Source of the DNA: Terriglobia bacterium
Lineage (GTDB): Bacteria > Acidobacteriota > Terriglobia > Terriglobales > Acidobacteriaceae
DNA: 64,000 nucleotides
Reading direction: 5' to 3'
Assembly (NCBI GenBank): GCA_020072585.1
Contig: JAIQGL010000014.1
Coordinates: 124,001-188,000, forward strand
In this document: positions 2,992 through 19,239 of the stretch, piece after piece
Layout of the letters: each line of letters opens with the position of its first letter
Numbering within the stretch: position 1 is the stretch's first letter
The notes under the pieces: model-generated
Databases searched by the model: none
What the model saw: the letters and a program-made list of their open reading frames with translations, nothing else
What the model was told of the DNA's origin: nothing
Position numbers and translations under genes: made by a program

Positions 2992-3366
2992 TCACAAAAC
3001 GCTTTTCCCAACCAGGCTGCGTACCATTCCCAAAAGCTCCTCGTTGGTAAATGGCTTTACCACGTACCCGTCAGCACCCTGCTGTTTGGCCCAGAACTTG
3101 TCACTCTCAGTACTCTTGGAACTCACCATCACCACCGGAATGCGGGCGTAGTCAGCGTTGCCCTTGAGTTCGCGGCAGGCCTGGAAGCCATTGCGCTGGG
3201 GCATCACCACATCCAGCAAGATCAGGTTCGGCCGCTCCATGTCGATCATCTGCTCCAGGCGGGTAGGATCGTGCACCGGGACTGACATATAACCGGCCCG
3301 ATCCAGCACAGACTGCATCAGCTTGACCTCGGCAGGTGAATCATCGACAATCAGAATCTTCGTCAA
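2992..3366 (-). CDS. Single-domain response regulator, PilH/CheY-like
   Basis: A 124-residue receiver domain without an output domain. The acidic pair is D8-D9 (ILIVDDS), the phospho-acceptor D52 (LLDVVMP), and the conserved lysine lies in VVKPF. The stretch ESDKFWAKQQGADGY resembles PilH of type IV pilus chemosensory systems more than flagellar CheY. The start is TTG at 3366 with AGAGG nine bases upstream. It is the first gene of the unit that continues into cheW, the receptor and cheR, and a sigma-54 type promoter lies 38 bp upstream. Confidence 0.9.
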   Translation of the reverse strand: MTKILIVDDSPAEVKLMQSVLDRAGYMSVPVHDPTRLEQMIDMERPNLILLDVVMPQRNGFQACRELKGNADYARIPVVMVSSKSTESDKFWAKQQGADGYVVKPFTNEELLGMVRSLVGKSVL

Positions 3367-3403: not shown

Positions 3404-3420
3404 TGCAATTCCGCAGCCAA
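3404..3420 (-). promoter_or_regulatory. Sigma-54 type -24/-12 promoter
   Basis: On the minus strand TTGGCTGC-GGAA-TTGCA matches TTGGCACG-N4-TTGCW, with the required GG-N10-GC spacing. The predicted start of transcription is about 3393, giving a leader of roughly 27 bases before the TTG start of the response regulator. A palindrome for an enhancer-binding protein lies at 3537-3553. Confidence 0.72.
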
Positions 3421-3500
3421 GCTTCAGGTTCAGCCACAGAATCTCAACTAACTAATAAGTATTTTAGAATGAGTTGATTAAGTAGATTTAGGACAGGGCT

Positions 3501-4199
3501 TCACTGGATACTGGAGAGCGTGTGAGACGGCTTATCTGTCTCATCCTGAGACGAATTCTCAGCCGAGCGGGCTTCCGCCGCCACCGATGAGAAGCGCTGC
3601 ATGATCTCATGCATATGCAAAGCCATCTCGTGGATGGTTTGCAGCTGATCACGTGCAGGCTCGGGAAATGCGTCGGCATCCAGCAAGAGCAGTTCGGCAT
3701 TGCCCAGGACAGAGGTCAGCGAATTGTTAAGGTCGTGGCGGCTCTCCAGCATGTAGCGCCCCAGTGTGGCCCCGCGTGAACTCGCCAGCGCCGCCTGTTC
3801 CGCACGGCGAACCCGCTCGGAAAGGTCCATGCGCTTCAGGCATTCCGTGGCCAGTGGCAAGAGCGAATCGAGCCATACCTCATGCGATTGCATGACGTGC
3901 AGGCGTGGATACCCGGACCTTGCCGTCTTTACGTCTTCAGAGCTTTCAAGAAGGCAGATCACCGGATAATCGCCGCCATCCACCATCTTCAGAACTGATG
4001 CCAGGCGTTTGCCGCGCACAGCGCCGACAATGGCCAGGTCAAATTCACCTTCCCCGATTTTGCTCAGCAGATCGGTGCTCATCACCGTGATTCCAGGAAG
4101 ACCAGGCTCCGCCTGCCAGCGGGCCATCAGGTCGTGGGCAAAAGCGGGATCGTCAGCAATGAGAACAACCTGAGAATCGCGCACCTGAACTCCCGTCAT
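3501..4199 (-). CDS. Degenerate receiver fused to a stand-alone DHp (histidine phosphotransfer-like) domain
   Basis: A 232-residue protein. The first 120 residues resemble a receiver fold (VVLIADD... near 11-17), but the phospho-acceptor position reads FDLAIVGA, so no Asp is present. A helical pair follows with the H-box-like SRHDLNNSLTSVLGNAE, His155, typical of histidine-kinase dimerisation domains. No ATPase domain follows. It may act as a phosphotransfer or kinase-docking module; that is inference. Its start overlaps the stop of the upstream 524-residue gene by 4 bp (ATGA). The activator palindrome at 3537-3553 lies inside its 3' end. Confidence 0.72.
   Translation of the reverse strand: MTGVQVRDSQVVLIADDPAFAHDLMARWQAEPGLPGITVMSTDLLSKIGEGEFDLAIVGAVRGKRLASVLKMVDGGDYPVICLLESSEDVKTARSGYPRLHVMQSHEVWLDSLLPLATECLKRMDLSERVRRAEQAALASSRGATLGRYMLESRHDLNNSLTSVLGNAELLLLDADAFPEPARDQLQTIHEMALHMHEIMQRFSSVAAEARSAENSSQDETDKPSHTLSSIQ
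3537..3553. promoter_or_regulatory. Palindromic activator-binding site (TGTCTCA-N3-TGAGACG)
   Basis: A near-perfect 17-bp dyad inside the end of the DHp gene, about 117 bp upstream of the sigma-54 element at 3404-3420, which is the usual place for an enhancer site. A further half-site TGAGAC is at 3523-3528. Similar dyads occur at 6455-6471 and 11715-11731. Confidence 0.65.
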
Positions 4200-5770
4200 C
4201 CAGCCGCCTTCTCGCCTTCGGCGATCAGCGACAAGAGGCGCTTGGTGGTTGCGGCCAGATTTACCGCCGCGTCAATGTTTTTAGCTTCTTTCGCGGCTTC
4301 AACATGGGACTTCATCTCTTCCACCTGGGCGCGAGCAATATCCATGGCCGCCGCAAGGTCGGTGGATTCGTTCTTTTTGTGGCGCTCCATGCAGACATGC
4401 AGGATCGTGCGCGCCGCCACCGTACGCTGTAACGCTTTGGACATTTCGTCGTCCTGCACAAACGCCTGCGCTTCCCAGGTAGCGATCAACAATTTGCATC
4501 CACCCAGAACAATTGCTGAGACGGCGGGAGAGTTCTTGGCCGGCACGCCTTGCAACTGTTCGGCAATATCTGCCACGCAGCGCGCCAGATAGCTTTCTTC
4601 TTCCGCCTGCGCTTCAGCCACCGATTCAGAACCGGCACTATGGGCAGGCCGCGAGATCAGGTCCGTGGGATCAGGTTCCGCTATCTTGATCGATTCCACC
4701 GGCGCAGCAGCAACAGGAATGGATTGAGGTTCTGGCTTCGGCGCGCTGACCGCAGCTGCCTCAAGAATGTCTTCCTCTTCCGGTTGAGCTGCTGTCTCTT
4801 GCTTCTTTGCCGGGACTGCGGGAACCGCTGTGGCTTGAACTGGTTCTGGCAACGATACGGGCGCAGCGACCTGAGCGGGAACGCTTTCCCTGGCGCTCTC
4901 CAGTGTGCGTTGCAAAGCATGGCGCAGAAGGATCAGTTGCAGGAATGATGAGCCGCCGGAATAGGGCGCACGGAATGGCGTTTTCCACTGGTGGACCACA
5001 TGCCGTACCTGCTCCAGCGATTCGCTTTCGGTCAAACCTGCGTCGCGGCAATCGACCGTGGCAAAGCCCAGCCGTTCCAGTTCGTTCACTGCCTCACGGA
5101 TGGCATGCAGATCAAGATGCATGGCATGAAAGAACGCACGCCGAGCCAGAAAATTAAAACGCGTAAATGCCACAAGAAAGCCAGGCTGGAAATAGTCGTC
5201 TCCCACGGCCAGCTTCAACTCGCGCACTTCCTGCAGCGCGCCGGTATTTTGCAGCTCTTCCAGGCTATTGGATTCATTCAGCTTGCGCAGCTTGTCGTCG
5301 AGACTTGGGGCCCAATCGGGAAAGCCATCAACCACTTTCCCCATTGCGGGCTGCAGCACGCGGGCCACTTCGCTCAACGCGGTCTCCGCCATGCCATGGG
5401 GTGCGCTATGGGCAAAGTATTGCACCAGAAGAAAATCAATCTTGTCCTTGTCCGCCTCGCTCTTCTGCGGCTTTTCCAGATGGCGGACGATAAGGTAGCG
5501 CAGGTTCTCTTCATTCTGCAGGCTGGTGCTTTGCAGCAACTGGCGCAACTGCCACACCTGCACATGCGCATCAATCTGCTCAAACCATTGGAGCACGCGT
5601 TCTCTGGCTTCCGTCTCCGGCGGGTCTACCGTGTCTTCCAGTTCAGCGCACGGTGTCATGCCGAGCTCGAAGGTACGATCCAGCTCCGCATAGACGGTAT
5701 ACAGCCGCCGCGCGACGCGCCAGAATTCCGCAGTTTCACCTAGGTTGAGCGTAGCCATTGTTGTCGTCAT
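4196..5770 (-). CDS. Uncharacterised protein of the chemotaxis locus
   Basis: I do not recognise a family for this 524-residue protein. Residues 1-300 look like a compact, mostly helical domain rich in Leu, Glu and Arg. Residues about 300-400 are a low-complexity Pro/Ala/Glu/Val linker. Residues about 405-524 are helical and Ala/Glu-rich (AAMDIARAQVEEMKSHVEAA) and may form a coiled coil. There is no signal peptide or membrane segment, so it is probably cytoplasmic. It follows the PilZ-like gene and overlaps the DHp gene by 4 bp, so a structural or adaptor role in this signalling pathway is likely but unproven. Confidence 0.8.
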   Translation of the reverse strand: MTTTMATLNLGETAEFWRVARRLYTVYAELDRTFELGMTPCAELEDTVDPPETEARERVLQWFEQIDAHVQVWQLRQLLQSTSLQNEENLRYLIVRHLEKPQKSEADKDKIDFLLVQYFAHSAPHGMAETALSEVARVLQPAMGKVVDGFPDWAPSLDDKLRKLNESNSLEELQNTGALQEVRELKLAVGDDYFQPGFLVAFTRFNFLARRAFFHAMHLDLHAIREAVNELERLGFATVDCRDAGLTESESLEQVRHVVHQWKTPFRAPYSGGSSFLQLILLRHALQRTLESARESVPAQVAAPVSLPEPVQATAVPAVPAKKQETAAQPEEEDILEAAAVSAPKPEPQSIPVAAAPVESIKIAEPDPTDLISRPAHSAGSESVAEAQAEEESYLARCVADIAEQLQGVPAKNSPAVSAIVLGGCKLLIATWEAQAFVQDDEMSKALQRTVAARTILHVCMERHKKNESTDLAAAMDIARAQVEEMKSHVEAAKEAKNIDAAVNLAATTKRLLSLIAEGEKAAG

Positions 5771-5870
5771 TATTTGTGTATCGCTTACGCGACGAAACCG
5801 CTAGAGATCCCGGAATCAACCAACAGTTTTCAGCTCCTGCATCTGGCCGCTCGCATATCCGGGCTTCCCG

Positions 5871-5899
5871 CCCCACCACGCGAAAACCGCGTGTTGGGG
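5871..5899. repeat. Intergenic hairpin
   Basis: CCCCACCACGCG at 5871-5882 pairs with CGCGTGTTGGGG at 5888-5899 with one mismatch. It sits between the PilZ-like gene and the 524-residue gene. No T-run follows on either strand, so it does not look like an intrinsic terminator. It could be a dispersed palindrome or a processing or stability element. Confidence 0.55.
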
Positions 5900-5965
5900 G
5901 GCCCGAGCTTCGCGGCCTTGCTTCAAAAATCTAAAGTCGCTTGCACAATCAATCGCCCGTGCCCC

Positions 5966-6319
5966 TCATGCTTTGATGACCCAGTTGGCAACGTCTTCCA
6001 GAAACCTGGCGGCAACGGCCATCTTGCCATGGTGAAAACGCATGGCCACGATCCTGGCCGCAATATCAAGCGACCCATCCGAGTTCCGCACCCGCACGGT
6101 ATCGTCAAAATCCAGAGGCAGGCGGGAAACAAACAAAACTTCCCTGGACGTGCCAAATTCGATCGCCGTCTGCTCCGCGGGAGCGCCGTTAACGGCATCT
6201 CCCTTAATGACACGCACAGGGATCTTCACTGGCACTGCTCCCGAAAAAAACTTTGCTAGTTCGCTGACGCAATCTGTTCTCTCCACCAGCTTTGGCCCTT
6301 TAGAGACTGCTCTCCCCAT
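5966..6319 (-). CDS. PilZ-like domain protein
   Basis: A 117-residue protein whose second half (VRVRNSDGSLDIAARIVAMRF ... MAVAARFLED) resembles the beta-barrel of PilZ domains. The canonical RxxxR and D/NxSxxG cyclic-di-GMP ligands are not clearly present, so binding of the nucleotide is uncertain. The start ATG at 6319 has AGGAG 12 bases upstream. A sigma-54 element at 6367-6383 would start the transcript about 37 bases before the start codon. It is the first gene of the unit that continues to the 524-residue protein and the DHp protein. Confidence 0.65.
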   Translation of the reverse strand: MGRAVSKGPKLVERTDCVSELAKFFSGAVPVKIPVRVIKGDAVNGAPAEQTAIEFGTSREVLFVSRLPLDFDDTVRVRNSDGSLDIAARIVAMRFHHGKMAVAARFLEDVANWVIKA

Positions 6320-6366
6320 GACTTGGGATTACTCCTATATCGAGAAAACTTAGCTGAAACACTTAG

Positions 6367-6383
6367 AGCAAGACCCCGGCCAA
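6367..6383 (-). promoter_or_regulatory. Sigma-54 type -24/-12 promoter
   Basis: On the minus strand TTGGCCGG-GGTC-TTGCT fits the sigma-54 consensus with exact GG-N10-GC spacing. The predicted transcription start is near 6356, upstream of the PilZ-like gene. TGTCTCA repeats lie 72-126 bp further upstream. Confidence 0.72.
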
Positions 6384-6454
6384 ACTGCGGAACCACTAAG
6401 CTATTGATTCGGAAGATGCAAATTACTTCACTGTGAACCCGTTCCTGCTGAAGC

Positions 6455-6493
6455 TGTCTCAGGATGAAACAATGTCTCAGTCGATTTGTCTCA
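6455..6493. promoter_or_regulatory. Cluster of TGTCTCA activator half-sites
   Basis: The dyad TGTCTCA-N3-TGAAACA is at 6455-6471. Further direct TGTCTCA copies follow at 6473-6479 and 6487-6493. The last copy contains the stop codon of the NtrC-type activator gene. The cluster is placed as an enhancer for the sigma-54 promoter at 6367-6383. Confidence 0.65.
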
Positions 6494-7888
6494 TGAGGCC
6501 GCTGACGCGCTTTTGTCCAGGCCAATGTTGTATCGCTTGAGCTTCCGATAGAGCGTGGCGCGGCTGATTCCCAGCATCTTTCTGGCGCGCGCTTTATCGC
6601 CCTGCACCTGCTCAAAGACGCGTTGAATCGTGTCCCGCTCAAGCTCTTCCAGATCGGTGTTTGAGCCTGCCGGTCTTTCCTGCGGAAATTCAACAGCCAC
6701 TGGGCCCTCTTGCTGTTGCCGCAGCGCGGGCGGCAGATCGGGAATGTCGATCGTCTCATGGCTGCCAAGGGCCACCGCTCTCTCAATACAGTTTTCCAGC
6801 TCACGCACATTGCCCGGCCAGTCATATTGCAGCATGCACTTCATGGCGGCGGGAGAAATCGTGATCGTCTTGTCCGGGGCAAACCGGTCCAGAAAATAAT
6901 GCACCAGCGGAGGAACGTCAGACCTTCTCTCCCGCAATGGCGGCAGATGCAATGTGACCACGTTCAAGCGGAAATACAGGTCCTTGCGGAACTTGCCTTC
7001 TTTTTGCGCCGCTTCCAAATCTCTATTGGTAGCGGCAATCACCCGCACATCCACTTTTATTTTCTGGTTGCTTCCCACCGGCCGCACTTCTTTTTCCTGC
7101 AACACGCGGAGCAGCTTGGCCTGCAACTCCTGCGAGAGCTCGCCAATCTCATCAAGAAAGATTGTTCCGCCGTGCGCGGTTTGAAACAGTCCGTCCTTGG
7201 AGCGGATAGCGCCGGTGAACGCGCCCTTTTCATAGCCGAACAACTCGCTTTCAATCAGCGTGGGAACAAGAGAGCCGCAATCCACCGCGACGAAAGGCCG
7301 CTTGGACAGCAGGCCGCGGTAATGGATGGCCCGCGCCACAAGCTCTTTGCCTGTCCCACTCTCACCGGTGACCAGCACCGGCGTGCGCGTATCTTTCAAG
7401 CGGGCGACCATGCGCAGCACATCCTGGATCTTGTGCGAGGAGCCCACAATGCCGCTCAGATCCATCTCCGTGCTCACGCGTTCGCGCAAGAACTGGTTCT
7501 CCGCCACCAGGTTCACCTTTTCCGCCATGCGCTGGAGCAGCAGCTTGAGCTCTTCTATGCGGAAAGGCTTGGTGATGTAGTCATACGCTCCCAGCTTCAT
7601 GGCCTGCACCGCGGTCTCAATGGACCCGTGGCCCGTCATGATGGCGATCTCCGTTCTGGGCAGCAACTGCTTCACGCGCGGCAGAAATTCCAGGCCGGAC
7701 ATATTGGGCATCATCAGATCGGCCAGGATGATGTCGGGCGAATCGTTCTCCATTTGCGCCAGTGCGGCTTCCGCGCTTTCAGCCTCCACACAGACAAAAC
7801 CAACGGATGCACCGACGGTCATGCAGAGCTTGCGTATGCTCTGGTGGTCGTCCACGATCATGAACCGGACTCTTGCGTCGTCTGTCAT
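6491..7888 (-). CDS. NtrC-family sigma-54-dependent response regulator
   Basis: A complete 465-residue activator. The receiver domain has its acidic pair at D13-D14 and phospho-acceptor D57 (IILADLMMP). The AAA+ domain has Walker A GESGTGKE (about 175-182), the sigma-54 contact loop GAFTGA (about 222-227) and Walker B FLDE. A Fis-type helix-turn-helix ends the protein (ARKMLGISRATLYRKLKRY). Phosphorylated members hydrolyse ATP to open sigma-54 promoters. It overlaps the receiver gene before it by 4 bp and forms an operon with that gene and the sensor kinase. Its likely targets are the dyads near 3537, 6455 and 11715; this is inference. Confidence 0.95.
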   Translation of the reverse strand: MTDDARVRFMIVDDHQSIRKLCMTVGASVGFVCVEAESAEAALAQMENDSPDIILADLMMPNMSGLEFLPRVKQLLPRTEIAIMTGHGSIETAVQAMKLGAYDYITKPFRIEELKLLLQRMAEKVNLVAENQFLRERVSTEMDLSGIVGSSHKIQDVLRMVARLKDTRTPVLVTGESGTGKELVARAIHYRGLLSKRPFVAVDCGSLVPTLIESELFGYEKGAFTGAIRSKDGLFQTAHGGTIFLDEIGELSQELQAKLLRVLQEKEVRPVGSNQKIKVDVRVIAATNRDLEAAQKEGKFRKDLYFRLNVVTLHLPPLRERRSDVPPLVHYFLDRFAPDKTITISPAAMKCMLQYDWPGNVRELENCIERAVALGSHETIDIPDLPPALRQQQEGPVAVEFPQERPAGSNTDLEELERDTIQRVFEQVQGDKARARKMLGISRATLYRKLKRYNIGLDKSASAAS

Positions 7889-8283
7889 TGTGCTTTACCA
7901 AAGATCCTTTCCACAGTGTTGATCAGTTCCTGCACGCGGAAGGGTTTTTCGATATACGGCACGCCGGTGCTTTGCAGCGCTTTCATGGTGTGCTCATTCA
8001 CGGTGTCACCGGTGATAAAAAGCATGCGCTCTTTCAACTCAGGGCGGTGCGCGACGATCCATGCGTGTACGTCAGCGCCGCTGGCGCCGCCAGGCGTGCG
8101 CATATCAGAGATAACGCCGCCAAAACGGCCTGTCTCCAGCACGCGTATCCCCTCAGCCGCGGAGTTCGCGGTCCGGCAGGCATAGCCGCTCCGTTCCAAT
8201 GCCGTGCGGATGAACTCCATCACCGAGCGCTCATCTTCGATCAACAGAAGCGGCAGGCTCGCAACCGCCAGGCCGACGTTCAT
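7885..8283 (-). CDS. Single-domain response regulator
   Basis: A 132-residue receiver domain with an LLIEDE acidic pocket, phospho-acceptor D60 (GVISDMRTP) and a conserved lysine in IEKPF. No output domain is present. ATGA overlaps at both ends link it tightly to the sensor kinase before it and the NtrC-type activator after it. It may act as a phosphate relay or sink between the two; that is inference. Confidence 0.9.
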   Translation of the reverse strand: MNVGLAVASLPLLLIEDERSVMEFIRTALERSGYACRTANSAAEGIRVLETGRFGGVISDMRTPGGASGADVHAWIVAHRPELKERMLFITGDTVNEHTMKALQSTGVPYIEKPFRVQELINTVERIFGKAQ

Positions 8284-11200
8284 GGTTTCGCTCCTGCGGC
8301 GGCCACCACCAGCTTTAGATCAGTCCTGGTGCGGATGGGCAAGCGCACGCTGAAAGTCGCTCCCTGCGTTTCCTGATTATTGGCGCACAGGATCTCGCCT
8401 TCATGTTCGCGCACAATGCCGTAACAGATGCTCAGGCCAAGTCCGGTCCCCTGCCCTACTTCTTTCGTGGTAAAGAAGGGATCAAAGATGCGTTCCGGAT
8501 GCTGAATGCCTTCACCGTTGTCGCGGAACAGCACCTCGACCCAGCCTCCGTCCTGAATGGTTTCAATCTCGATCAGCCCGGGACGGCCTGCGGACTGCAC
8601 GGCATCATACGCGTTGTTCAGAATATTGAGGAACACCTGTTGTAACTGGTGAGAATCGCCGATCAATTCCGGCAGGCGCTCATCAAATTTCTCCACGATC
8701 TGCACACCGTGATTGGCAAAGTCATAGGAACGCAACGCAATGGTCTTGCGCAGGATGTTGTTGATCTGCAATGGCTGGCGCTGCGGCGGGCGCTGGCGGG
8801 CGAAGCTCAACAGGTTCTGCACGATCTCCTTGGTGCGCTGCGCCTCTTCCAGAATTACCTGCAAGTCTTTGCGCGCGCTGCCCGGCACTTCCGGGTTCTC
8901 CATGAGAAGGTCAGAGAATCCCATGATCGCCGTGAGTGGATTATTCACCTCATGCGCCACGCCGGAAACAAGTTGGCCTACGGCGGCCATTTTTTCCGTG
9001 TGCATCAGCTTGGCCTGAATCATTGAGGTGTCAGTAATGTCGGTCATCAGCACCACCACGCTGCTCACTTCGCTGCGGTCGTCGCGCATGGGGCTCAGGT
9101 TCACGGAAAATTTGCCCTGTGTGCCGTTGCCGCGCGTGATCATCAGCTCAAGATTGTCTGATTGCAGGCCGTGCAGGCTGGCGTCAAATGCCTCAGCAAA
9201 CGATTTTTTATGCGAGAGGGAGATGATCCGGTCCAGGCGGTGGCCGACCAGTTCGTTCTGTTCAAAGCCGCCACCCTCGTAAACACGCTGGTTGGCATAG
9301 CTGATTAACCCCGCGGTATCGGCAACCATGATCATGGTCTGCGTGTTGTTCAGAATCTTGCTGGTGAAGTCGCGTTCGCGCTGCAGCTGCGCCTGGAAGT
9401 TCTTGACCTCGGTAATGTCAAGAAAGACGCCGCGATATTGCATGATCTTGCCCTGTCCGTCTTTCACGACGAATGCATTCTCCAAAGCGTGAATCATGGT
9501 GCTGTCACGGCGGCTGAGCGTGACTTCAAAGTTGCGAATCGCACCTCTCTCGGTCAACTGGCGGGTGATTTCGTCGCGCTGCTCAGCGGAGACATAGACC
9601 TGCGTCTGCAAGTCAAGCTTCAGGACCTCTTCGCGTGTCTGATAACCCAGCATCCGCACCAACGCATCATTCACTTCAATGAAATGGCCTTCGGGCGAAG
9701 CAAAGAACACGCCTTCCTGGACGTTATCGAACAGCTCGCGATAGCGCTGTTCGGCTTCACGGCGGTCAGTAATGTCCTTGAGCACGTGCACCGTTTGCAG
9801 CCCTTCATCCAGAGCGCCATGGATGCGCGAACTGGAAACCAGATAGGTGCGCTCCAGCACCGGATGCAGGTATTCGTCAGACTCGTTTTCGCCCCGGCAG
9901 AAGGGGCACGGCTGCGGAGAATCAGACGCAATCGATACCAGCGCGCGCATGCTCAGGCCGATCAACTCGGCCGGCCGCACTCCAATGAACTCTGCCAGAG
10001 ACCGATTGACGCGGAGCACCTCATACTGCTCATCGTGCACCACGATGAAATCCGAGATGGAATCAAATATCTCCGCCCATTGCCGGCTGGACTGCGTGAT
10101 TCTGGTGAACAGCCGGGAGTTCTCCAGCGCCACGGAGGCATGCACGATCAACGCCTGGAGCAGATTGAGATCGTTGGGCATGAGTTCGCGGCTGATGTCA
10201 GCCAGCGCAAGGATGCCGAGAAGATCAGCTTCAGTTCCTTCAAGCCGCACTAGGGTGAGGTTCTGCCAGCCGCAAGCCGCTGCCAGCTCCGGCCCCAGCA
10301 TCTGCACGCCGCTGCCGGTGATCTTGAGATCAGGATGCCGCTCAGCGAATTCAGAAAATGCCGCGTTAAGCTTGCGCTGCAGCTCGCGCTCCGGTCTGGC
10401 GCCACAGAACCCGACACTCTCCACCTTGTTGCCCTGCGCCAGCGCCAGAATGGCAGACCTTGCGCCAATCATGCTGGCCACGCGCTCAGTAAAATTCTTT
10501 ACAAAATCCGGCAGACGCAAGGCCGAGCCCAGGTCCAGGGCCATCTCCATCAGATCTTCCGTACGCTTGCGATGCTGGTCAGAAAGTTGGAGATTGTGGG
10601 CCGATTCCAGCGCCACCGTAATCTCGGCACCCAGCACGCGGGCACGACGAACATCGTCCGGCGTGATGCGGCCTTTGTTCTTTTTGTCTGCCAGGCCCAG
10701 TACGCCGAGCGGGCGGCCATCGGCGGTCGTCAACGGCATACCCAGGTACTGTTTTACGTCAGATTCCCAGCGCAGCAACTGGGACTTCTCATTCGCAGCG
10801 AGCTGGCTTACATCCTCACAGATATGAGGCGTCCTGGTTTCAAGCACACGCCGGACGATAGCGGAGACGTCAAAATCCAGCCGGCTCGATGTCCCCTTGT
10901 TAGCGCCCCAACGCAGGCGGCACTCGCCGGAATCCACAAGTGCCACAAAAGCCCGGGAGAAGCCGAGAAAATCAGCCGCACGCACCACGAATCGGGGAAG
11001 AAAGCTCTCCAGTTGCGACGTGGCCCCAAGCTCGGCGGAGATATCCAGCAGCAGGTCAAGGTCATGCTTTTGTGTTGAATAAAGACCGGCGAGCTCGGCA
11101 TTATCCAGCGCCAGGCGGGCCATATTGCCCAGCACGCTAAAAGCGGAGAGTTCAGCGGGAGAGAAGACGCTGTCTCGAACCACCAGAAGTACGGCCGCGG

Positions 11201-11648
11201 TCTCCGTGGTCATCATAGGCTGCGCAAGGCCGTGATAGATGGCTTCGCCTCCATGAGACCGGAATGAGAAACGGAAGTCGAGCAGGCGCTTTTGCTCGAT
11301 CGCCTGCGTAGCGAAGGAGCGCGCATGCTCCAGCAGCGCTTTCTTGCCTGCCGGCTCGTCCACGTCTGTACAGACGGCCCCGGGCAGATAGCTTTCACCA
11401 TGGCGGACCATCATGCCAGCCACCACGGCTTGAAAGATTCCTCTTGCGGATTCCGCAATGTGTTGCCGCAGAACCGTGGCGTCTCCGCTAAGAGCCGGCA
11501 GCTTAACGCACGCCTCAAGCACCTCTTCCATGCTGACCGACGGCCGATTCGGCAGCTTAGTGCGAACTTGTCCGGCTTTTCGCGTCGGTCTCATCAGTCT
11601 CAGTCGTTTTCCTACTGTGGGAAGACTGAAGGTACTCTGGAATCTCAT
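8280..11648 (-). CDS. Large GAF/PAS sensor histidine kinase
   Basis: A 1122-residue kinase with no obvious membrane segment, so probably cytoplasmic. Two or three GAF-like domains cover about residues 40-530. Three PAS domains follow (about 530-880); the first has a CPFCRGE cysteine pair that could bind metal or sense redox state. The HisKA H-box is SGVAHEVNNPLTAIMGFSD. The ATPase domain has the N box LNILNNAYDA and G boxes DNGEGI and GTGLGLS. It resembles NtrB-type kinases and heads the operon with the receiver and the NtrC-type activator, its probable phosphorylation partner. A later ATG in frame (MRPTRKAG) is an alternative start. Confidence 0.92.
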   Translation of the reverse strand: MRFQSTFSLPTVGKRLRLMRPTRKAGQVRTKLPNRPSVSMEEVLEACVKLPALSGDATVLRQHIAESARGIFQAVVAGMMVRHGESYLPGAVCTDVDEPAGKKALLEHARSFATQAIEQKRLLDFRFSFRSHGGEAIYHGLAQPMMTTETAAVLLVVRDSVFSPAELSAFSVLGNMARLALDNAELAGLYSTQKHDLDLLLDISAELGATSQLESFLPRFVVRAADFLGFSRAFVALVDSGECRLRWGANKGTSSRLDFDVSAIVRRVLETRTPHICEDVSQLAANEKSQLLRWESDVKQYLGMPLTTADGRPLGVLGLADKKNKGRITPDDVRRARVLGAEITVALESAHNLQLSDQHRKRTEDLMEMALDLGSALRLPDFVKNFTERVASMIGARSAILALAQGNKVESVGFCGARPERELQRKLNAAFSEFAERHPDLKITGSGVQMLGPELAAACGWQNLTLVRLEGTEADLLGILALADISRELMPNDLNLLQALIVHASVALENSRLFTRITQSSRQWAEIFDSISDFIVVHDEQYEVLRVNRSLAEFIGVRPAELIGLSMRALVSIASDSPQPCPFCRGENESDEYLHPVLERTYLVSSSRIHGALDEGLQTVHVLKDITDRREAEQRYRELFDNVQEGVFFASPEGHFIEVNDALVRMLGYQTREEVLKLDLQTQVYVSAEQRDEITRQLTERGAIRNFEVTLSRRDSTMIHALENAFVVKDGQGKIMQYRGVFLDITEVKNFQAQLQRERDFTSKILNNTQTMIMVADTAGLISYANQRVYEGGGFEQNELVGHRLDRIISLSHKKSFAEAFDASLHGLQSDNLELMITRGNGTQGKFSVNLSPMRDDRSEVSSVVVLMTDITDTSMIQAKLMHTEKMAAVGQLVSGVAHEVNNPLTAIMGFSDLLMENPEVPGSARKDLQVILEEAQRTKEIVQNLLSFARQRPPQRQPLQINNILRKTIALRSYDFANHGVQIVEKFDERLPELIGDSHQLQQVFLNILNNAYDAVQSAGRPGLIEIETIQDGGWVEVLFRDNGEGIQHPERIFDPFFTTKEVGQGTGLGLSICYGIVREHEGEILCANNQETQGATFSVRLPIRTRTDLKLVVAAAGAKP

Positions 11649-11714
11649 TTTGAGTCAATAAGGAATTGACCTGCCAGAATCACAGGGACAACACCATCCA
11701 TCGACCTTAGATAC

Positions 11715-11731
11715 GGTCTCACTGTGAGATG
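11715..11731. promoter_or_regulatory. Palindromic activator-binding site
   Basis: The dyad GGTCTCA-CTG-TGAGATG has the same 7-3-7 layout as the sites at 3537 and 6455. It lies in the divergent region between the sensor kinase gene and the plus-strand che operon, about 150 bp upstream of the sigma-54 element at 11881-11897. A half-site TGAGACG follows at 11756-11762. Confidence 0.6.
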
Positions 11732-11880
11732 AAAAGCAACAAACAACCTGGTGAATGAGACGCAACTCAAGCAAGATTGTTCCGCTTGGCGAGGCTCGGC
11801 TTCTCATGGTCATACTTAACCTATTGATTTTTTTGGTTTTGCTGGAGCTTACATGCCGAAAGTGCTAATCCCATGCGTTG

Positions 11881-11897
11881 GTGGCCATGGCCTTGCT
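11881..11897 (+). promoter_or_regulatory. Sigma-54 type -24/-12 promoter of the che operon
   Basis: GTGGCCAT-GGCC-TTGCT has GG-N10-GC spacing and matches the consensus at the key positions. Transcription would start near 11908, leaving a 160-base leader before the receptor gene at 12070. Confidence 0.65.
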
Positions 11898-12069: not shown

Positions 12070-14112
12070 ATGCGTATCAGCAAAAGCATTGGGGGCAAGC
12101 TCTATACGGGCTTTGGCCTGATCATGGCAATCGTGGTGGTGGCCTTTTTTGTGAACTGGCTGGCGGTCCGGCATGAGCAGACCACCCGGGCACTCTATAA
12201 GAAGTCCATTACGATGGTGGAAAACCTGTCCAAGCTGGATCGGGCGAGGAACCAGAACCGTCTCTTTCTGCGCAACTTCCTCCTCAACGGCGACCGGCGC
12301 GAATCCGACGCCCTGGCCCGGGGTGAGAGCGATGTGGATACCCTGATCGCTGACATCAAGGAAAACGGTATGACCCTTGGGGACACCGCCCGCGTACGCC
12401 AGCTGCTGGACCAGCTATCTGATTCTGAACGGGACTGGGCCAGGACCTTTGCCTCCCCCTTGATGGAAAAACGCCGCCAGGTGGATACCGGCAGCGCGAC
12501 CGTGGCGGAATTGCAAATCGCCTATCTTCAGGCCACACCTACGCCGGAACAGAAACAAAAAGAAGAGCAGCCGATGCTGCAACTGGCAGCCATGACCAAG
12601 GAAGCCAACTCCGAGGCAGAAGCCTCTGATAGCACCGCCGCAATGCTGATTACGCTGATTACACTTGGCGGCCTGGTGCTGGTGATCATCCTGGCGGGCT
12701 CAATCTCCTGGCGTGTCGCGAAATCGATCACCGTTCCACTTTCCCAGCTGATCAGTGTGGCCGGACAGATCGGCGACAACGGAGACCTGGAGCAGCAAGT
12801 CAACATTGTGGGCGAAGATGAAGTCGCGCAGCTAGCGCGGACCTTTAACAACATGGTGCAGTATCTGCGCGAGATGGCGGGCATTTCAGAGGCGATTGCC
12901 GGCGGTGATCTCTCCGTGGAAATCAACCCGCGCTCCTCGCGCGACACCCTGGGTAAGGCTTTCCGTGAAATGACCCTGGGCCTCCGCAACATGGTAAAGA
13001 ATGTGCGTGACAGCGCGGCCCAGGTGGCCAGCGGCTCCAACCAGGTCGCATCCGCTTCTGACGAATCGGCCAAGATCAGCGTACAGGCGGCCTCTGCCAT
13101 TGACGAGGTCACCAGCACCATGCATGAGATGAGCATCAACGTGCAAAACATGGTGAAGAGCACGCAGATGCAGGCCTCTAACGTAAGCGAAACCTCAGCC
13201 TCCATCGACGAAATGGTGGCCTCAATCCAGCGCGTGGCCGATACGGCCAAAGTGCTGCTGGATATCTCACAGCGCTCGCGTGACGAGGTGCATAACGGCA
13301 TCAACACCATGGAAAAGGCGACCAACGGATTGAGCCGCATCAATGCCGCCATCGGTTCCTCCGCGGAAATCATCTCCGCCCTGGGACAGCGCGCGGACGA
13401 CATTGGCAAGATCATTGAGGTAATCGACGATCTGGCGGAGCAGACCAACCTGCTGGCTTTGAACGCCGCGATTGAAGCCGCCCGCGCCGGCGAGCACGGG
13501 CTGGGATTTGCCGTGGTGGCCGACGAAGTCCGCAAGCTGGCGGAAAAGTCAGCGCAGTCCACGCGGGAAATTTCCGAACTGATCCAGAGCATCCAGAAGG
13601 AAGCCCGCAAGGCCGTGGACAACATGGAAAAGTCGACCAGCATCGTGAATGAAGGCATCACGCTGGGCGGCGACCTGAGCGGCGCGCTGAAGAAGATTTC
13701 CAGCGTGGTTTCAGAGGTCTACAAATTTGCTCAGGAAATTGGCGCAGCCACCAACGAGCAGTCGCATGGTTCTTCACAGATCGCCAAAGCTACCACGCGT
13801 CTGAACGAGATCACGCATGAGATCAACTCTTCCGTGGAAGAGCAGGCTTCAGGCGCGCAAGCAGTGGTTCGCGCGATGGAAAAGATGCGCGAACTGGTGC
13901 AGCGTTCCTCATCCGGATCAACCGAGCTGGCGGCATCAGCGGAGCAGATGTCCAAGATGTCACGCTCCATGCTGGAAGCAATGGACCGCTTTGTCCTGGA
14001 AAACACGATGGCAGCACGCGATGGGCGCGGCGCGCCACGCCGGGGCGAAGAACAACCGGGCCGCAGCACGCCGACGGCACAATACGCGACCGCGGGCGCG
14101 CACTACAACTAA
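12070..14112 (+). CDS. Methyl-accepting chemotaxis protein
   Basis: A 680-residue receptor. Membrane segments lie at about 13-33 and 192-213 and enclose a roughly 160-residue helical periplasmic region of the four-helix-bundle type. HAMP domains follow (about 214-320, probably two in tandem). The signalling hairpin [19 protein letters not shown] lies around residues 456-474. The start ATG has AGAGG nine bases upstream. It is the first gene of the complete che operon and is followed 17 bp later by cheW. Its ligand cannot be told from the sequence. Confidence 0.95.
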
Positions 14113-14129
14113 GCACGGAAGGAGACCCA

Positions 14130-14621
14130 TTGGCCAAGGAACTGCACATTGTCGGCTTCCGCGTGGGACGCGAGGTGTTTGGCGTACCGATCTCGCTGGT
14201 ACATGAGATTGTGCGCGTACCGGAGATTACTTCTGTTCCGGATTCGCCCGGCTGCGTACAGGGAGTCATCAACCTGCGGGGTAAGATTGTCTCCGTGGTG
14301 GACCTGCGGCGGCGTTTTGGGGAGAAAGACATCAAGCCTACAAAAAAGAACCGCATCCTGGTATCTGAGGTGCACGGCAAGCTGGTGGGGCTGATCGTGG
14401 ACAGCGCATCTGAAGTCCTGAAGATCCCGGAGAGTGATGTAGAGCTGCCGCCAGTGTTTGACCAGGGCGAACTTAATTACGTAACCGGCGTGGGTAAGCT
14501 GAATGGCCGGCTGATCATACTGATTGACCTGAACAGAATCCTCCAGAAGGGCGAGCTCAAGCGGCTGGGTGAAGTTGTTGAACCCCAATTGTCCACCGCC
14601 GCCGCTGCTGCGGGATTGTAG
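14130..14621 (+). CDS. cheW: Chemotaxis adaptor CheW
   Basis: A 163-residue single-domain CheW. FGVPISLVHEIVRVPEIT, INLRGKIVSVVDLRRRFG and VGLIVDSASEVLKIP are characteristic. The start is TTG at 14130, chosen because GGAAGGAG lies just five bases before it and no ATG fits. It bridges the receptor at 12070-14112 and CheA. It is the second CheW in the window and is closer to the classical chemotaxis type than the one at 2335-2847. Confidence 0.94.
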   Translation: MAKELHIVGFRVGREVFGVPISLVHEIVRVPEITSVPDSPGCVQGVINLRGKIVSVVDLRRRFGEKDIKPTKKNRILVSEVHGKLVGLIVDSASEVLKIPESDVELPPVFDQGELNYVTGVGKLNGRLIILIDLNRILQKGELKRLGEVVEPQLSTAAAAAGL

Positions 14622-14667
14622 AGCGGCTGCATTTTTTAAGAGGACCAGGGAATAAAACGGGAAACCA

Positions 14668-15573
14668 ATGGCCACACCGAGTGTTCAAATCCAAATCAGT
14701 GAACCGGAATACAAGCTGCTGCAGACCCTGGTGTACCAGGAATGCGGCATGTACTTTGACGAACGGCGGGCGCACTTTCTACAGGACCGCCTCCAGCGCC
14801 GGCTGAAAATCTGCGGGCTGGACACCTTTTACGCCTACTATCGCCTGCTCACCAGCTACCAGGGCAAGGCGGAGTTGAGCGCGCTGGTGGAAAATCTCAC
14901 TGTCAATGAGACCAGCTTCTTCCGCAACAAGCCGCAGCTTGAGCTGTTCCAGAAGATCGTTCTGGAAGAACTGCTAAGGCGCAAACAGGAACGCCGTGAC
15001 TGGAGCCTGCGCCTGTGGTGCGCGGGATGCTCGACCGGGCAGGAACCATACACAATGGCCATGCAGGTATGCGACGCGCTGGCTTACTACTACCTGCGCA
15101 ACCCATTGCCCTTTGAAATGCCCGTTCCCAAGCCTCTGATTCCACCACCGTGGAAAGTGGAGATCCTGGCTTCTGACATTAACTACTCCGTGTTGCGCGC
15201 GGCCCAGGAAGGCGTCTACCCGGAAACCCAGATGGACTCCGTCGATTACGCATATCGCCTACGCTACTTCGATAAGGTCGGCGACCGCTATGCCATCAAG
15301 CGCAGCCTGAAAGACCTGGTCCATTTCGATTTCCATAACCTGAAGACCGAATTTCTGCCCCAGCGCAATGACATTATTTTCTGCCGCAACGTAATGATCT
15401 ATTTTGACGAGGCCGAGCAGAAACGCCTGGTGGAAAAACTCTACCGCTGTCTGAACGCGGAAGGGTATTTGTTCATCGGCCACGCTGAAAGCCTTTTTGG
15501 GCTTTCTGACAAGTACAGGATGGTCCATCAGAACAACGGCACGGCATACCAGCGCATTGAGGTGGCAGGGTGA
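14668..15573 (+). CDS. cheR: Chemotaxis protein methyltransferase CheR
   Basis: A 301-residue, full-length CheR. The N-terminal helical domain is followed by the SAM-binding fold with LWCAGCSTGQEPYTMAM, ILASDINYSVL and the DIIFCRNVMIYFD motif. It methylates receptor glutamates and thus sets adaptation, opposing CheB. Its stop codon overlaps the GTG start of cheA (GTGA), which indicates translational coupling. Confidence 0.95.
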   Translation: MATPSVQIQISEPEYKLLQTLVYQECGMYFDERRAHFLQDRLQRRLKICGLDTFYAYYRLLTSYQGKAELSALVENLTVNETSFFRNKPQLELFQKIVLEELLRRKQERRDWSLRLWCAGCSTGQEPYTMAMQVCDALAYYYLRNPLPFEMPVPKPLIPPPWKVEILASDINYSVLRAAQEGVYPETQMDSVDYAYRLRYFDKVGDRYAIKRSLKDLVHFDFHNLKTEFLPQRNDIIFCRNVMIYFDEAEQKRLVEKLYRCLNAEGYLFIGHAESLFGLSDKYRMVHQNNGTAYQRIEVAG

Positions 15574-17696
15574 CGTTTTTCCCTGACGATCGGGCCTCCG
15601 AGCTCCGCGAACTCTTCTTTGAGACGGCAACGGAACTGTTGCAGACACTCAATGAAGAGGGGCTGGAGCTGGAGAAGCGTCCGGAAGACGGAGAAGTGCT
15701 GCGCCGCGTGCGCCGCACCGTGCACACGCTCAAGGGAGACTCAGCCGCTTGCGGTTATACCGAATTAAGCGAGCTGGCCCATGCCCTGGAAGACGTACTC
15801 AAGCCCGAAGTGGCCGCGCTGAGCAAGCAGGCGCTGGCAGAAGTAGTGCTGATTGCCGCCGACACATTCAGCTCCATGCTTTCCGCGTATCGAGGCAGCC
15901 TGCAACCGCCCGCAGGAGAGGAGCTGAAACAGCAGATCCTGTCACTCACGCGCAAGCCCGCCAGCAATGTCCGCTACAAGCTGCAGGCGCGCTTTGTGTG
16001 GAGCGAGTACGAGCAGATTGTGGTGGCGGACGCGCTGGGCCGGGGCGAAAACGTTTACAACGTGGCGTTTTCCATTGAGCCGCAATGCCCCATGCGCGGC
16101 GCGGCCATGCAACTCATTCGCAATGTGCTGCAGGATTGCGGCCGCCTGCTGGCGATGGCGCCGGACCAGAGCACACTGAGCAACGACCTTGACGTGGTGG
16201 AAGCCGCCATTTCGAGCGAAAATTCCGAAGAGTGGATCACAAGAAAGTGCCGCATCCCATCCGTGATCGCGGAGGTCCTGGTGCAAAGGGCCACGCACCG
16301 CCAGGAACAGCCGGAAGATCTGCTCGATATCGTGAAGCACGTAACCACTCCGGTGGAAGACGAAACTGAAGTAGCGATCCACGCGGAAGAGACACATGCG
16401 CCGGCGGTTGAGGTCGCGCCTGAACCCGCAGCTCCGCCCGTGGCCAATGCGGCCACAGCCGCAGCGGATTCCCAGTCCACAAGTTTCGCCAGCATGTCAG
16501 AAACGCTGTTGCGCGTGGATGCGGAAAAGATCGACTCAGTCCTGAACCTTGTGGGTGAACTGATTATCGCCAAGAGCATGCTGCACCAGGCGATCAACGA
16601 ATTCGACAGGAAATATCCTAAAGATCCTTTGAAGATGCGCTTCTCCGATGCCATGGCGTTCCAGGCCCGCATCATGAACGATCTGCAAAAATCGGTCATG
16701 AAGATCCGCATGGTGCCGGTGGAGCATCTTTTCCGCCGCTTCCCACGCGTGGTCCGCGATGTGGCCAAGTCCTGCGGCAAAGAAGTAAATCTCGCGGTGA
16801 CCGGACAGGACACTGATCTGGACAAGAGCATTCTTGACATGCTGGCCGAGCCGCTCGCCCATCTTGTGCGCAACGCGGTAGACCATGGCATTGAATCTCC
16901 GGCGGAACGCATCAATCAAGGCAAACCTGCCCAGGGCACAGTAACGCTTGACGCGTACCACCAGGGCAATCAGATCATTATTGAAGTAACCGACGACGGG
17001 CATGGCATTGACCGCGACAGGCTGATCGCCAAAGCGGTGGAGCGAGGACTGCTCAAGGCGGGAGATGCGGCGGTCCTGGGGGAAGCCGACATCAACAATC
17101 TCGTTTTCCATCCCGGACTAAGCACCGCCGATCAGGTGACTGCAATCTCCGGACGCGGCGTCGGCATGGATGTAGTGAAGACAGTGCTCGAAAAGCTGAA
17201 GGGGTCTGTCAGCATCAGGACCACGCCCGGCAAAGGAACCACGTTCTTTTTGAAAGTCCCGCTCACGCTTGCCATCATCAAGGCGCTGCTGTTCCGCGTG
17301 GGCGACCGTTTATATGCGGTCCCGCTGGCTTCCGTGATGGAAATTACCCGGACGACGCATGGCGCGCTGCATCGCGTGGACAATCAGGATGTGATGCAGT
17401 TACGGAATGAAGTCCTGATGCTGCTGCATCTCCACCGCCTGCAAAAAGAACCCGCGGAAAAGGACAAGATGTTTGTAGTGGTAATTTCCACCGGCGAGCG
17501 CAAGTTCGGCCTGGTGGTGGACCATCTGGTAGGGGAAGAAGAATTGGTCATCAAGGCCATGGACGACCATTTGGTCGCTACGGACCTGGTCAGCGGCGCT
17601 TCAATCCTGGGCGACGGCACGGTGGTGCTGATCCTGAATCTTTCAAGTGTGGTGACAAAGCTGGGTAGGTTACAGATGGTGGGAGCGACAGCATGA
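15570..17696 (+). CDS. cheA: Chemotaxis histidine kinase CheA
   Basis: A 708-residue kinase, the only CheA in the window. The Hpt domain carries phospho-accepting His52 in VHTLKGDSAACGY. A less conserved middle region (about 130-300, with a Pro/Ala/Glu linker) is followed by the dimerisation domain. The ATPase domain has HLVRNAVDHGIE, DDGHGID and GRGVGMDVV. The C-terminal CheW-like domain ends the protein. It phosphorylates CheY and CheB in response to receptors. The GTG start overlaps cheR and the end overlaps cheB by 4 bp. Both receptor arrays in the window probably depend on it. Confidence 0.96.
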   Translation: MTFFPDDRASELRELFFETATELLQTLNEEGLELEKRPEDGEVLRRVRRTVHTLKGDSAACGYTELSELAHALEDVLKPEVAALSKQALAEVVLIAADTFSSMLSAYRGSLQPPAGEELKQQILSLTRKPASNVRYKLQARFVWSEYEQIVVADALGRGENVYNVAFSIEPQCPMRGAAMQLIRNVLQDCGRLLAMAPDQSTLSNDLDVVEAAISSENSEEWITRKCRIPSVIAEVLVQRATHRQEQPEDLLDIVKHVTTPVEDETEVAIHAEETHAPAVEVAPEPAAPPVANAATAAADSQSTSFASMSETLLRVDAEKIDSVLNLVGELIIAKSMLHQAINEFDRKYPKDPLKMRFSDAMAFQARIMNDLQKSVMKIRMVPVEHLFRRFPRVVRDVAKSCGKEVNLAVTGQDTDLDKSILDMLAEPLAHLVRNAVDHGIESPAERINQGKPAQGTVTLDAYHQGNQIIIEVTDDGHGIDRDRLIAKAVERGLLKAGDAAVLGEADINNLVFHPGLSTADQVTAISGRGVGMDVVKTVLEKLKGSVSIRTTPGKGTTFFLKVPLTLAIIKALLFRVGDRLYAVPLASVMEITRTTHGALHRVDNQDVMQLRNEVLMLLHLHRLQKEPAEKDKMFVVVISTGERKFGLVVDHLVGEEELVIKAMDDHLVATDLVSGASILGDGTVVLILNLSSVVTKLGRLQMVGATA

Positions 17697-18772
17697 GCAG
17701 TAAATTGCGAGTCCTGGTGGTGGATGATTCCGCGTTAATGCGGAAATTGATTCCACAGATCCTCGCCCAGGACAGTGAGATTGAAGTCGTTGGAACGGCC
17801 ATGGATGGCGCGTTTGGACTGAAGAAAATTGAAGACCTCCGTCCGGACGTTGTGACGCTGGACCTGGAAATGCCGCGCATGGACGGACTGGAGACACTGC
17901 GCGAGATCACGCGAAGGTTCCGCGTGCCCGTGATTGTGGTAAGCGCTCTGACCACTGACGGTGCAAGCGCAACCTTCAAGGCGCTGGCGCTGGGCGCGTT
18001 TGATTTCGTGGCCAAGCCGCGTGATGCCGCGTCCGCGCACATGGATGAGATTGCCCTGGACCTTATCAACAAAATCAAGGTCGCGGCAAAAAGCAAGATG
18101 CGCAACACGACGGCGCCCGCGGTCCTGGACCGGCCCAGGCCGAATAAACCGGCGCTGCGTCCACGGCGTGAGCCGACCAAGATCATCGCCATTGGGATCT
18201 CCACCGGCGGGCCGAACGCACTGCAATACCTGCTGACGCAACTGCCTGGTGACTTCCCGGGGAGCATCGTTGTAGTGCAGCATATGCCCGAGGGATTTAC
18301 TGAGATGTTTTCCCGCCGGCTGGATGAATCATGCGCCATTGACGTTAAGGAAGCGCAATCCGGGGACCTGCTGATTGCCGGACGCGCGCTGATCTGTCCC
18401 GGAGACCGTCATATCAAGCTGCGGCGCATGCCGCTGGGGAACACCGTGGTTCTTTCCGATGAAGCACGTATGAACGGACACAGGCCGTCGGTCGACGTTC
18501 TGTTCCGTTCGGTGGCCGCGGAGTTTGGCAGTCGCGCTGTGGGCGTCCTGATGACGGGCATGGGCGACGACGGAGCTGAAGGCCTGGGGTTGATGAAAGA
18601 TGCAGGGGCACTGACGATCGCGCAGAGCGAGGATTCCTGCACGGTCTTCGGCATGCCCAAAGCCGCTATTGAGCGTGGTCACGCGATGCGCGTGGTCCCG
18701 CTGGACATGCTGGCCAACACGCTGGCCATGCAATGCAATCCGGAAAAGATTGCGAGAGCTGTAAAAGTTTAG
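17693..18772 (+). CDS. cheB: Protein-glutamate methylesterase CheB
   Basis: A 359-residue protein with an N-terminal receiver (acidic pair D11-D12, phospho-acceptor D57 in TLDLEMP) and a C-terminal methylesterase domain. The catalytic triad is visible: Ser in GISTGGPNAL, His in VQHMPEGF and Asp in MTGMGDDGAEG. It removes methyl groups from (and can deamidate) receptor side chains once phosphorylated by CheA. The start overlaps the cheA stop by 4 bp. Confidence 0.96.
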   Translation: MSSKLRVLVVDDSALMRKLIPQILAQDSEIEVVGTAMDGAFGLKKIEDLRPDVVTLDLEMPRMDGLETLREITRRFRVPVIVVSALTTDGASATFKALALGAFDFVAKPRDAASAHMDEIALDLINKIKVAAKSKMRNTTAPAVLDRPRPNKPALRPRREPTKIIAIGISTGGPNALQYLLTQLPGDFPGSIVVVQHMPEGFTEMFSRRLDESCAIDVKEAQSGDLLIAGRALICPGDRHIKLRRMPLGNTVVLSDEARMNGHRPSVDVLFRSVAAEFGSRAVGVLMTGMGDDGAEGLGLMKDAGALTIAQSEDSCTVFGMPKAAIERGHAMRVVPLDMLANTLAMQCNPEKIARAVKV

Positions 18773-18797
18773 CTGGAGTTGCTAGGAGAATAAACAT

Positions 18798-19235
18798 ATG
18801 GACACATTTCCAATCCTGATTCGCAAGGACGGCAAACCGATCCGGTACCTGGTAGTGGACGACTCTGTCTTCGCGCGCAAGAACGTGGCCAAGATGGTGG
18901 AGTCTTTCGGCGGCGAAATCGTCGGCGAAGCCGGCGACGGCTGCACCGCCATCACTGAATTTGACCGCACCACGCCTGACATGGTCCTGATGGACATCAC
19001 TATGCCGCAAATGGAGGGCATAGAGGCGGCGGAGCGCATCGTCCGGGCACATCCTGACGCCCGCATCGTCATGGTTTCCTCCGTCGGATACCAGGAAAAC
19101 ATTGTGGCCGCGCTACAGAAAGGCGCCCGGCACTTTGTCCAGAAGCCGGTGAAGTCGGAGATCCTTTACGAAGTCATCAAATATGTGATGGGCGATGACG
19201 CGGTGGTGGCTACGCCGGCAGCCCAGGAGAGCTGA
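18798..19235 (+). CDS. cheY: CheY-type response regulator
   Basis: A 145-residue receiver. The acidic pair is D21-D22 (YLVVDDSVF), the phospho-acceptor D66 (VLMDITMP) and the lysine lies in VQKPVK. A 15-residue N-terminal extension precedes the domain, as in some CheY proteins paired with CheX. Family knowledge: CheY carries the signal from CheA to the motor or another output. No flagellar or pilus genes are in the window, so the output is unknown. It lies 25 bp after cheB and directly before cheX. Confidence 0.93.
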   Translation: MDTFPILIRKDGKPIRYLVVDDSVFARKNVAKMVESFGGEIVGEAGDGCTAITEFDRTTPDMVLMDITMPQMEGIEAAERIVRAHPDARIVMVSSVGYQENIVAALQKGARHFVQKPVKSEILYEVIKYVMGDDAVVATPAAQES

Positions 19236-19239
19236 GACG

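Follow-up and report, generated by a model that had tools for sequence, protein, structure and literature searches.

NtrC-type activators are built of a receiver (REC), an AAA+ and a helix-turn-helix (HTH) domain, and in the enteric NtrB/NtrC system (glnLG) as well as in other self-regulating NtrC systems sigma-54 promoters are preceded by dyads. NtrC regulators have been reported to control the operon that encodes them (PMC8743547, PMC10274813), and NtrC descendants lacking GAFTGA in Rhodobacter capsulatus and Caulobacter act without sigma-54 (PMC10274813). Chemosensory genes are under sigma-54 control in Rhodobacter sphaeroides (PMC7277832), and such control was predicted in Geobacter (PMC2577667). 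In the NmpRSTU system of Myxococcus xanthus a local NtrC-like regulator binds upstream of the sigma-54 site in a motility target (PMC6211767). In this study we analyzed a chemosensory locus in a stretch of 64,000 nucleotides (the window) from assembly GCA_020072585.1, an acidobacterial genome of 6.9 Mb in 74 contigs (here named G000) whose closest named relatives are Candidatus Sulfotelmatobacter and gp1 Acidobacteria metagenome-assembled genomes. The locus very probably forms a self-wired two-component regulon, in which a locally encoded NtrC-type activator would drive three sigma-54 operons and most likely repress its own promoter.

An initial annotation of the window had proposed -24/-12 elements with exact GG-N10-GC spacing before three transcription units, each with a 17-bp dyad of the form TGTCTCA-N3-TGAGACA located 70-190 bp upstream. 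All three elements and all three dyads were found at these places (Table 1), with one, one and three mismatches to the dyad consensus before operons 1, 2 and 3, and with core to -24 distances inside the proposed range. The three mismatches of the operon 3 dyad were all located outside the core TCTCA-N3-TGAGA. The slightly wider core TYTCA-N3-TGAGA occurred at just three sites within the 64 kb, each 74-152 bp upstream of TGG-N8-KTGC. As is typical of sigma-54 promoters, the elements combine TGGC/TTGC with GG-N10-GC, lie upstream of genes and are conserved. The gene for sigma-54, rpoN, was represented in G000 by one PF04552 match (E 1.4e-58).

To follow these sites across genomes we used a strict pair pattern, built after sight of the sites in relatives, consisting of the core TYTCA-N3-TGAGA followed by TGG-N8-KTGC at a gap of 65-95, 110-140 or 141-171 bp, with the reversed pattern as control. 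Genome-wide, G000 contained three matches, one per bin, and these were the three window sites; the reversed pattern gave one match over all bins. Within this pattern and the bins searched, the term self-contained, which the initial annotation had used for the regulon, is thus a fair one. Among 61 genomes including G000 the three bins yielded 21, 23 and 15 matches compared to 0, 1 and 2 in the controls, in total 59 pairs versus 3. At the locus itself 47 of the 59 pairs were located, and 46 were aimed at the expected gene according to tblastn assignment. An ortholog of the activator with at least 69% identity was present in 28 genomes, 24 of which carried a pair at the locus. Conservation in close relatives had been named as the test on which the proposal could fail. 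Here, the dyads and promoters were kept at orthologous positions, and in alignments of the genus (with G009 added for operons 1 and 2) the dyad, the extra half-site and the -24/-12 element formed islands amid diverged DNA.

A fourth site, which was not part of the initial annotation, is located at the promoter of the kinase-receiver-activator operon. In this site the half-site TGTCTCA is altered to TGACTCA and thereby also forms the -35 element TTGACT of a sigma-70-like promoter with the layout TTGACTCAAAATGAGATT-N6-TACCTT and a spacing of 18 bp. The search pattern TTGACTCA-N3-TGAGA-N7-9-TANNNT matched 29 of the 61 genomes (the spacing N7 alone matched 1), and these were the same 29 that were found by the activator search, namely the 28 genomes with the ortholog plus G011, in which the activator search had picked up a 54% relative encoded on a different contig. 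The site was absent from the 32 remaining genomes. There was one copy per genome with the exception of two in G011, and 28 of the resulting 30 places fell into the interval that separates the kinase gene from MCP2. The remaining two belong to G011 and are located close to contig ends (C54 and C90), with the site beside an ortholog devoid of the AAA+ domain. In a scan of the family the fourth site was present in 138 of 398 genomes (control 0), and two copies were found in G011 and G099. Both copies in G099 (L307, L308) have MCP2, kinase and activator genes as neighbours, and this genome thus possibly carries the locus twice.

As the fourth site covers the -35 element and the spacer, it most likely serves to repress the operon that encodes the activator. 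A predicted activator site over a housekeeping-type promoter of its own operon is the arrangement of a self-repressed NtrC operon. The site also bears on the gene start of the kinase. The first ATG of the kinase open reading frame (11648) falls within the fourth site and upstream of the predicted transcript start; for this reason we moved the start downstream, and the true start is probably ATG 11594 or 11531. The alignment of the kinase in six relatives of the genus begins only at residue 12 to 60.

A second sample comprised 60 loci from 59 of the 138 genomes with the fourth site; these loci were picked for holding that site and had not been used in building the pair pattern. They contained 74 pairs compared to none for the reversed control in 616,099 bases. 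Seventy of the pairs preceded MCP2 (40), P6 (21), U5 (4), CheY1 (3) or CheW1 (2); one was located before HK9 and three had no assigned gene. An activator was counted as full when 70% or more of its AAA+ domain was present, which applied to 46 of the 60 loci (45 at a threshold of 90%); 36 of the 46 had one or more strict pairs at a gene where they were expected. Twelve loci ended before the AAA+ domain and two carried an activator lacking it.

The protein content is in agreement with the initial annotation, which had described an NtrC-type activator with an intact GAFTGA loop, a receiver and a large GAF/PAS kinase. In the activator REC, AAA+ and Fis-type HTH domains as well as Walker A, Walker B and GAFTGA were all present, and GAFTGA was found in 72 of 72 full-length orthologs. 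The HTH was the most conserved domain (mean 0.89 versus 0.85 for AAA+ and 0.78 for REC). A phosphorylatable Asp was read by eye within ILADLMMPN of the REC domain, and the H-box of the kinase reads HEVNNP. The activator reached no curated cut-off among the 25 NCBIfam families listed of 127 matched, the best score being that of AtoC (471 of 714 bits), with 428 of 558.6 bits for NtrC. According to Pfam, it was the only protein with a DNA-binding domain among the scanned proteins of the minus strand. Because the operon is conserved, the kinase would be expected to phosphorylate the activator.

In the proposed circuit the GAF/PAS kinase would signal to the activator of the same operon, whose Fis-type HTH would bind TGTCTCA-N3-TGAGACA-like dyads with the core TCTCA-N3-TGAGA. 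From dyads 74, 119 and 152 bp before the -24 element, the AAA+/GAFTGA domain would then open the sigma-54 promoters, aided by IHF-like bending. The putative targets are a CheY-CheW-MCP-CheR-CheA hybrid operon, a PilZ operon and an MCP-CheW-CheR-CheA-CheB-CheY-CheX operon. The same activator would occupy the fourth dyad over the -35 element and spacer of its own sigma-70-like promoter and most likely repress it; by such repression the activator level would be held steady while both chemosensory sets switch together. The positions of the sites, their conservation, their co-occurrence with the activator gene and the loss of AAA+ linked to the absence of pairs are seen in the sequences; activator binding, phosphotransfer, sigma-54 activation and own-operon repression are what we infer. 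The initial annotation had assigned all chemotaxis genes to the kinase-activator pair. The conserved sites, the co-occurrence of the dyad with the activator gene and the activator as sole scanned minus-strand protein with a DNA-binding domain support this part, and we would extend the regulon to the activator's own operon with its sigma-70-like promoter. That all three transcription units are chemotaxis units applies to operons 1 and 3; operon 2 encodes PilZ-like, all-helical and HisKA-like proteins, which are not core chemotaxis proteins.

The contribution of bending was judged by the IHF consensus WATCAANNNNTTR. In the window, IHF-like sites between dyad and -24 element were present in operons 2 and 3 only. 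The exact consensus was found in the dyad to -24 gaps of 20 of 48 pairs of operon 2 (shuffled mean 0.16), 10 of 62 pairs of operon 3 (0.27) and 4 of 20 pairs of operon 1 (0.07), and the maximum in any of 200 shuffles was 2. The sites are thus enriched, as in IHF-assisted promoters, though they occur in a minority of pairs. In operon 2, the 19 forward sites were located at 27-29 or 38-40 bp from the -24 element, approximately one helical turn apart. IHF-like DNA bending may help activation.

Three genomes (G011, G162 and G091) encode an in-frame activator consisting of REC and HTH_8 without AAA+ (Pfam), with the recognition helix intact. The fourth site was kept in all three, and within the DNA examined, which for G162 and G091 was the 15.5 kb fetched, none of the target genes was preceded by a pair. 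In G011 no chemotaxis or kinase gene was present in the fetched stretches of both contigs and no pair was found genome-wide in the three bins. G162 kept the chemotaxis genes, but its 15.5 kb showed no kinase match and, apart from the fourth site, no dyad; a strict -24/-12 element upstream of the chemotaxis genes was likewise missing. A kinase match was thus missing from the fetched stretches in two of the three genomes; G091 kept the kinase and the dyad before MCP. Since these genomes keep the fourth site without target pairs, the HTH appears to track the dyads and the AAA+ domain the -24/-12 pairs, in a comparison of three cases, which are few.

A single origin of the three AAA+-less activators was rejected by a clade test on a quick tree, omitting the duplicate rows L134 and L136 (p-AU 0.0056; the long G162 branch calls for caution), and for G011 and G091 as a pair the rejection was only marginal (p 0.049). 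The activator tree, calculated without the four shortened frames L034, L322, L342 and L362, placed L033 (labelled Candidatus Korobacteraceae) among the family rows. The best tree needs three changes to explain the AAA+ loss; the strongly supported branches alone force only one. Members of the RegA/PrrA family have a REC-Fis build and act without sigma-54. We lean slightly towards the view that one HTH serves two simultaneous modes, sigma-54 activation of two chemosensory sets and sigma-70 repression of its own operon, and that the activation mode disappeared on at least two and probably three occasions, when AAA+ was lost in frame together with the target pairs; what remains would be a REC-HTH regulator that resembles RegA and is still linked to the promoter of its own operon. 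If so, these genomes would represent a natural series for the dismantling of a sigma-54 regulon.

Several observations weigh against the regulon as proposed. Twelve of the 59 pairs were located outside the locus, and one pair at the locus had the wrong orientation (G055, L153). Four of the 28 ortholog genomes (G019, G030, G035, G036) lacked a strict pair at the locus, as did 10 of the 46 new loci with most of AAA+; seven of these ten had a weaker pair apart from the fourth site, with no gene assigned. By the pattern applied, the relative MNIJ (L031) had no fourth site. Gaps of 96-109 bp fall outside the genome-wide bins, weaker targets may exist elsewhere in the genome, and the relatives are not independent samples. 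A first-look activator search in G000 gave 109 candidates, which suggests many other such activators. Among the AAA+-less genomes, G162 may keep weak GG-N10-GC elements. In G091, TGG-N8-TTGC precedes MCP1 but is located on the upstream side of the dyad, and the single formal pair match has a promoter half that overlaps letters of the fourth site.

That the -24/-12 elements and dyads merely reflect chance or coding constraint is hardly conceivable. The 17-bp dyad by itself was indeed unremarkable: with up to three mismatches there were 4 matches in the window compared to 2.18 expected, a number reached in 16 of 100 shuffles, and with up to two mismatches it occurred at 9 places in G000 versus 14 for the reversed pattern. 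Given this lack of enrichment we rejected the dyad alone as evidence; the claim rests on the pairing with promoters and on conservation, for which the controls above leave 3 pairs against 59 and none against 74. The third site with one mismatch in G000 (C65:102289) was likewise rejected, since it does not match the core of the pair searches and no TGG-N8-KTGC was found up to 250 bases away in either direction. In the window, the 3' end of the HisKA-like gene runs over the operon 1 dyad, as coding constraint would have it. However, the dyad was kept in G004, G006 and G007, where tblastn found no HisKA-like gene, and coding constraint was rejected here as well.

Another DNA-binding protein could read the dyads while the local activator acts elsewhere. 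The predicted nature of the binding and the many NtrC-type proteins that are probable in a genome with 109 candidates speak for such a protein, but it is rather improbable: site and activator gene share the same 29 of 61 genomes, the AAA+-less copies retain the HTH and the own-promoter site with the pairs absent, and no second DNA-binding domain was detected among the scanned minus-strand proteins. A less remote, although still unlikely, alternative concerns the fourth site alone, at which the activator might use the sigma-70-like promoter to switch its own operon on in a positive feedback. A protein bound over the -35 element and spacer normally blocks the polymerase, and the dyad is located exactly there, which speaks for repression. 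Conservation of the fourth site is no weaker than that of the other sites, and it precedes the kinase operon in 28 of 30 matches, which would fit activation. NtrC proteins without GAFTGA can work at sigma-70 promoters; however, the same source terms self-repression of NtrC operons well established (PMC10274813). We thus retain a regulon with three activated operons and, most likely, a repressed fourth promoter.

Table 1. Features of the chemosensory locus and its predicted regulatory sites (window coordinates)
Feature	Position	Strand	Basis or remark
-24/-12 element, operon 1: TGGCTGCGGAATTGC	3405-3419	minus	GG-N10-GC; conserved in relatives
-24/-12 element, operon 2: TGGCCGGGGTCTTGC	6368-6382	minus	GG-N10-GC; conserved in relatives
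-24/-12 element, operon 3: TGGCCATGGCCTTGC	11882-11896	plus	GG-N10-GC; conserved in relatives
Dyad, putative activator site, operon 1	3537-3553	minus	core 119 bp from -24
Dyad, putative activator site, operon 2	6455-6471	minus	core 74 bp from -24
Dyad, putative activator site, operon 3	11715-11731	plus	core 152 bp from -24
Extra half-site TGAGAC adjoining operon 1 dyad	3523-3528		sequence, alignment
Further TGTCTCA half-sites, operon 2	6473-6479, 6487-6493		sequence
Extra half-site TGAGAC, operon 3	11756-11761		sequence
Fourth site: sigma-70-like promoter TTGACT-N18-TACCTT, dyad core over -35 and spacer	11629-11658	minus	kinase-receiver-activator operon
IHF-like site AATCAATAGCTTA, operon 2, between dyad and -24	6397-6409	minus	consensus match
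IHF-like site AATCAATAGGTTA, operon 3, between dyad and -24	11817-11829	minus	consensus match
MCP, operon 1	704-2170	minus	Pfam
CheW, operon 1	2335-2847	minus	Pfam
CheY-like receiver, operon 1 gene 1	2992-3366	minus	Pfam
HisKA-like protein (DHp only), operon 2	3501-4199	minus	Pfam, score at curated cut-off
All-helical protein, operon 2	4196-5770	minus	no known family
PilZ-like protein P6, gene 1 of sigma-54 operon 2	5966-6319	minus	AF2, Foldseek
NtrC-type activator: REC, AAA+ with GAFTGA, Fis-type HTH	6491-7888	minus	Pfam, motifs
Single receiver protein	7885-8283	minus	Pfam
GAF/PAS histidine kinase, start corrected to 11594 or 11531	8280-11594	minus	Pfam
Operon 3: MCP, CheW, CheR, CheA, CheB, CheY, CheX	12070-19731	plus	Pfam

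From left to right the minus strand encodes MCP, CheW and CheY, then the HisKA-like, helical and PilZ-like proteins, and finally the activator, receiver and kinase; the third chemosensory row is located on the plus strand. Each row of genes presumably forms one operon. The left chemosensory set extends past the window with CheR, a CheA-REC hybrid, CheB and two CheW (Pfam, tblastn). Between the MCP and CheW genes (2181-2335), some 40 bases (tgtcgctccgctccaaaccgc...agagcttcaaaaaactgatct) are repeated, with copies at 2183-2227 and 2292-2335. P6 had no Pfam match, but its AF2 model (pLDDT 79.7) matched PilZ-containing structures in Foldseek, and this likeness of the predicted fold hints at a c-di-GMP input. 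For the helical protein of 524 aa no PDB fold match was found at E 0.001; matches to it, some of them weak, were present in 26 of the 61 genomes including G000. Additionally, a protein with TIR_2 and HEAT repeats, possibly of a defence or NADase type, is encoded on the minus strand at 23672-24967. In G000, matches to an FlhA-type export protein were found in two adjacent frames (G000:C42:18819-21326, L250-L252), so that this genome may encode an export system of the flagellar or type III kind.

The circuit supplies a specific putative binding motif, four promoters as predicted targets and a corrected gene start, and the relatives include genomes that by nature lack both the AAA+ domain and the site/promoter pairs. 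A candidate trigger is thereby put forward for a widespread chemosensory locus, and footprints and reporters can test it. Among the entries listed in searches of the open-access literature, no description of the activator, of its site or of sigma-54 control of chemotaxis in Acidobacteriota was found, and the dyad motif combined with sigma-54 gave no match there. Passages of PMC3162934 and PMC3333781 likewise added nothing. The main text of a 2025 comparison of sigma-54 regulons (PMC12316311) contains no words starting with Acidobacteri, chemotaxis or IHF.

Compared to the described systems, the locus combines ordinary parts into an unusual whole. It shares the domain order of the activator and the dyads upstream of sigma-54 promoters with enteric NtrB/NtrC, but differs from it by chemosensory operons as targets, an additional single receiver and a GAF/PAS kinase. 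The dyad sequence differs from the NtrC site as well. In Rhodobacter, sigma-54 control goes along with flagellar genes, and the Geobacter prediction was based on single promoters; here the activator is encoded within the locus and every operon carries its site. NmpRSTU likewise has a local NtrC-like regulator, but its target is pilR rather than chemosensory operons. Unlike the GAFTGA-less NtrC proteins, the activators of G011, G162 and G091 lack the entire AAA+ domain in frame, and the pairs are absent too. What sets the locus apart is a chemosensory locus with an activator of its own, predicted sites at each operon and at the activator promoter, and a record of the loss of the activating domain along with its promoters.

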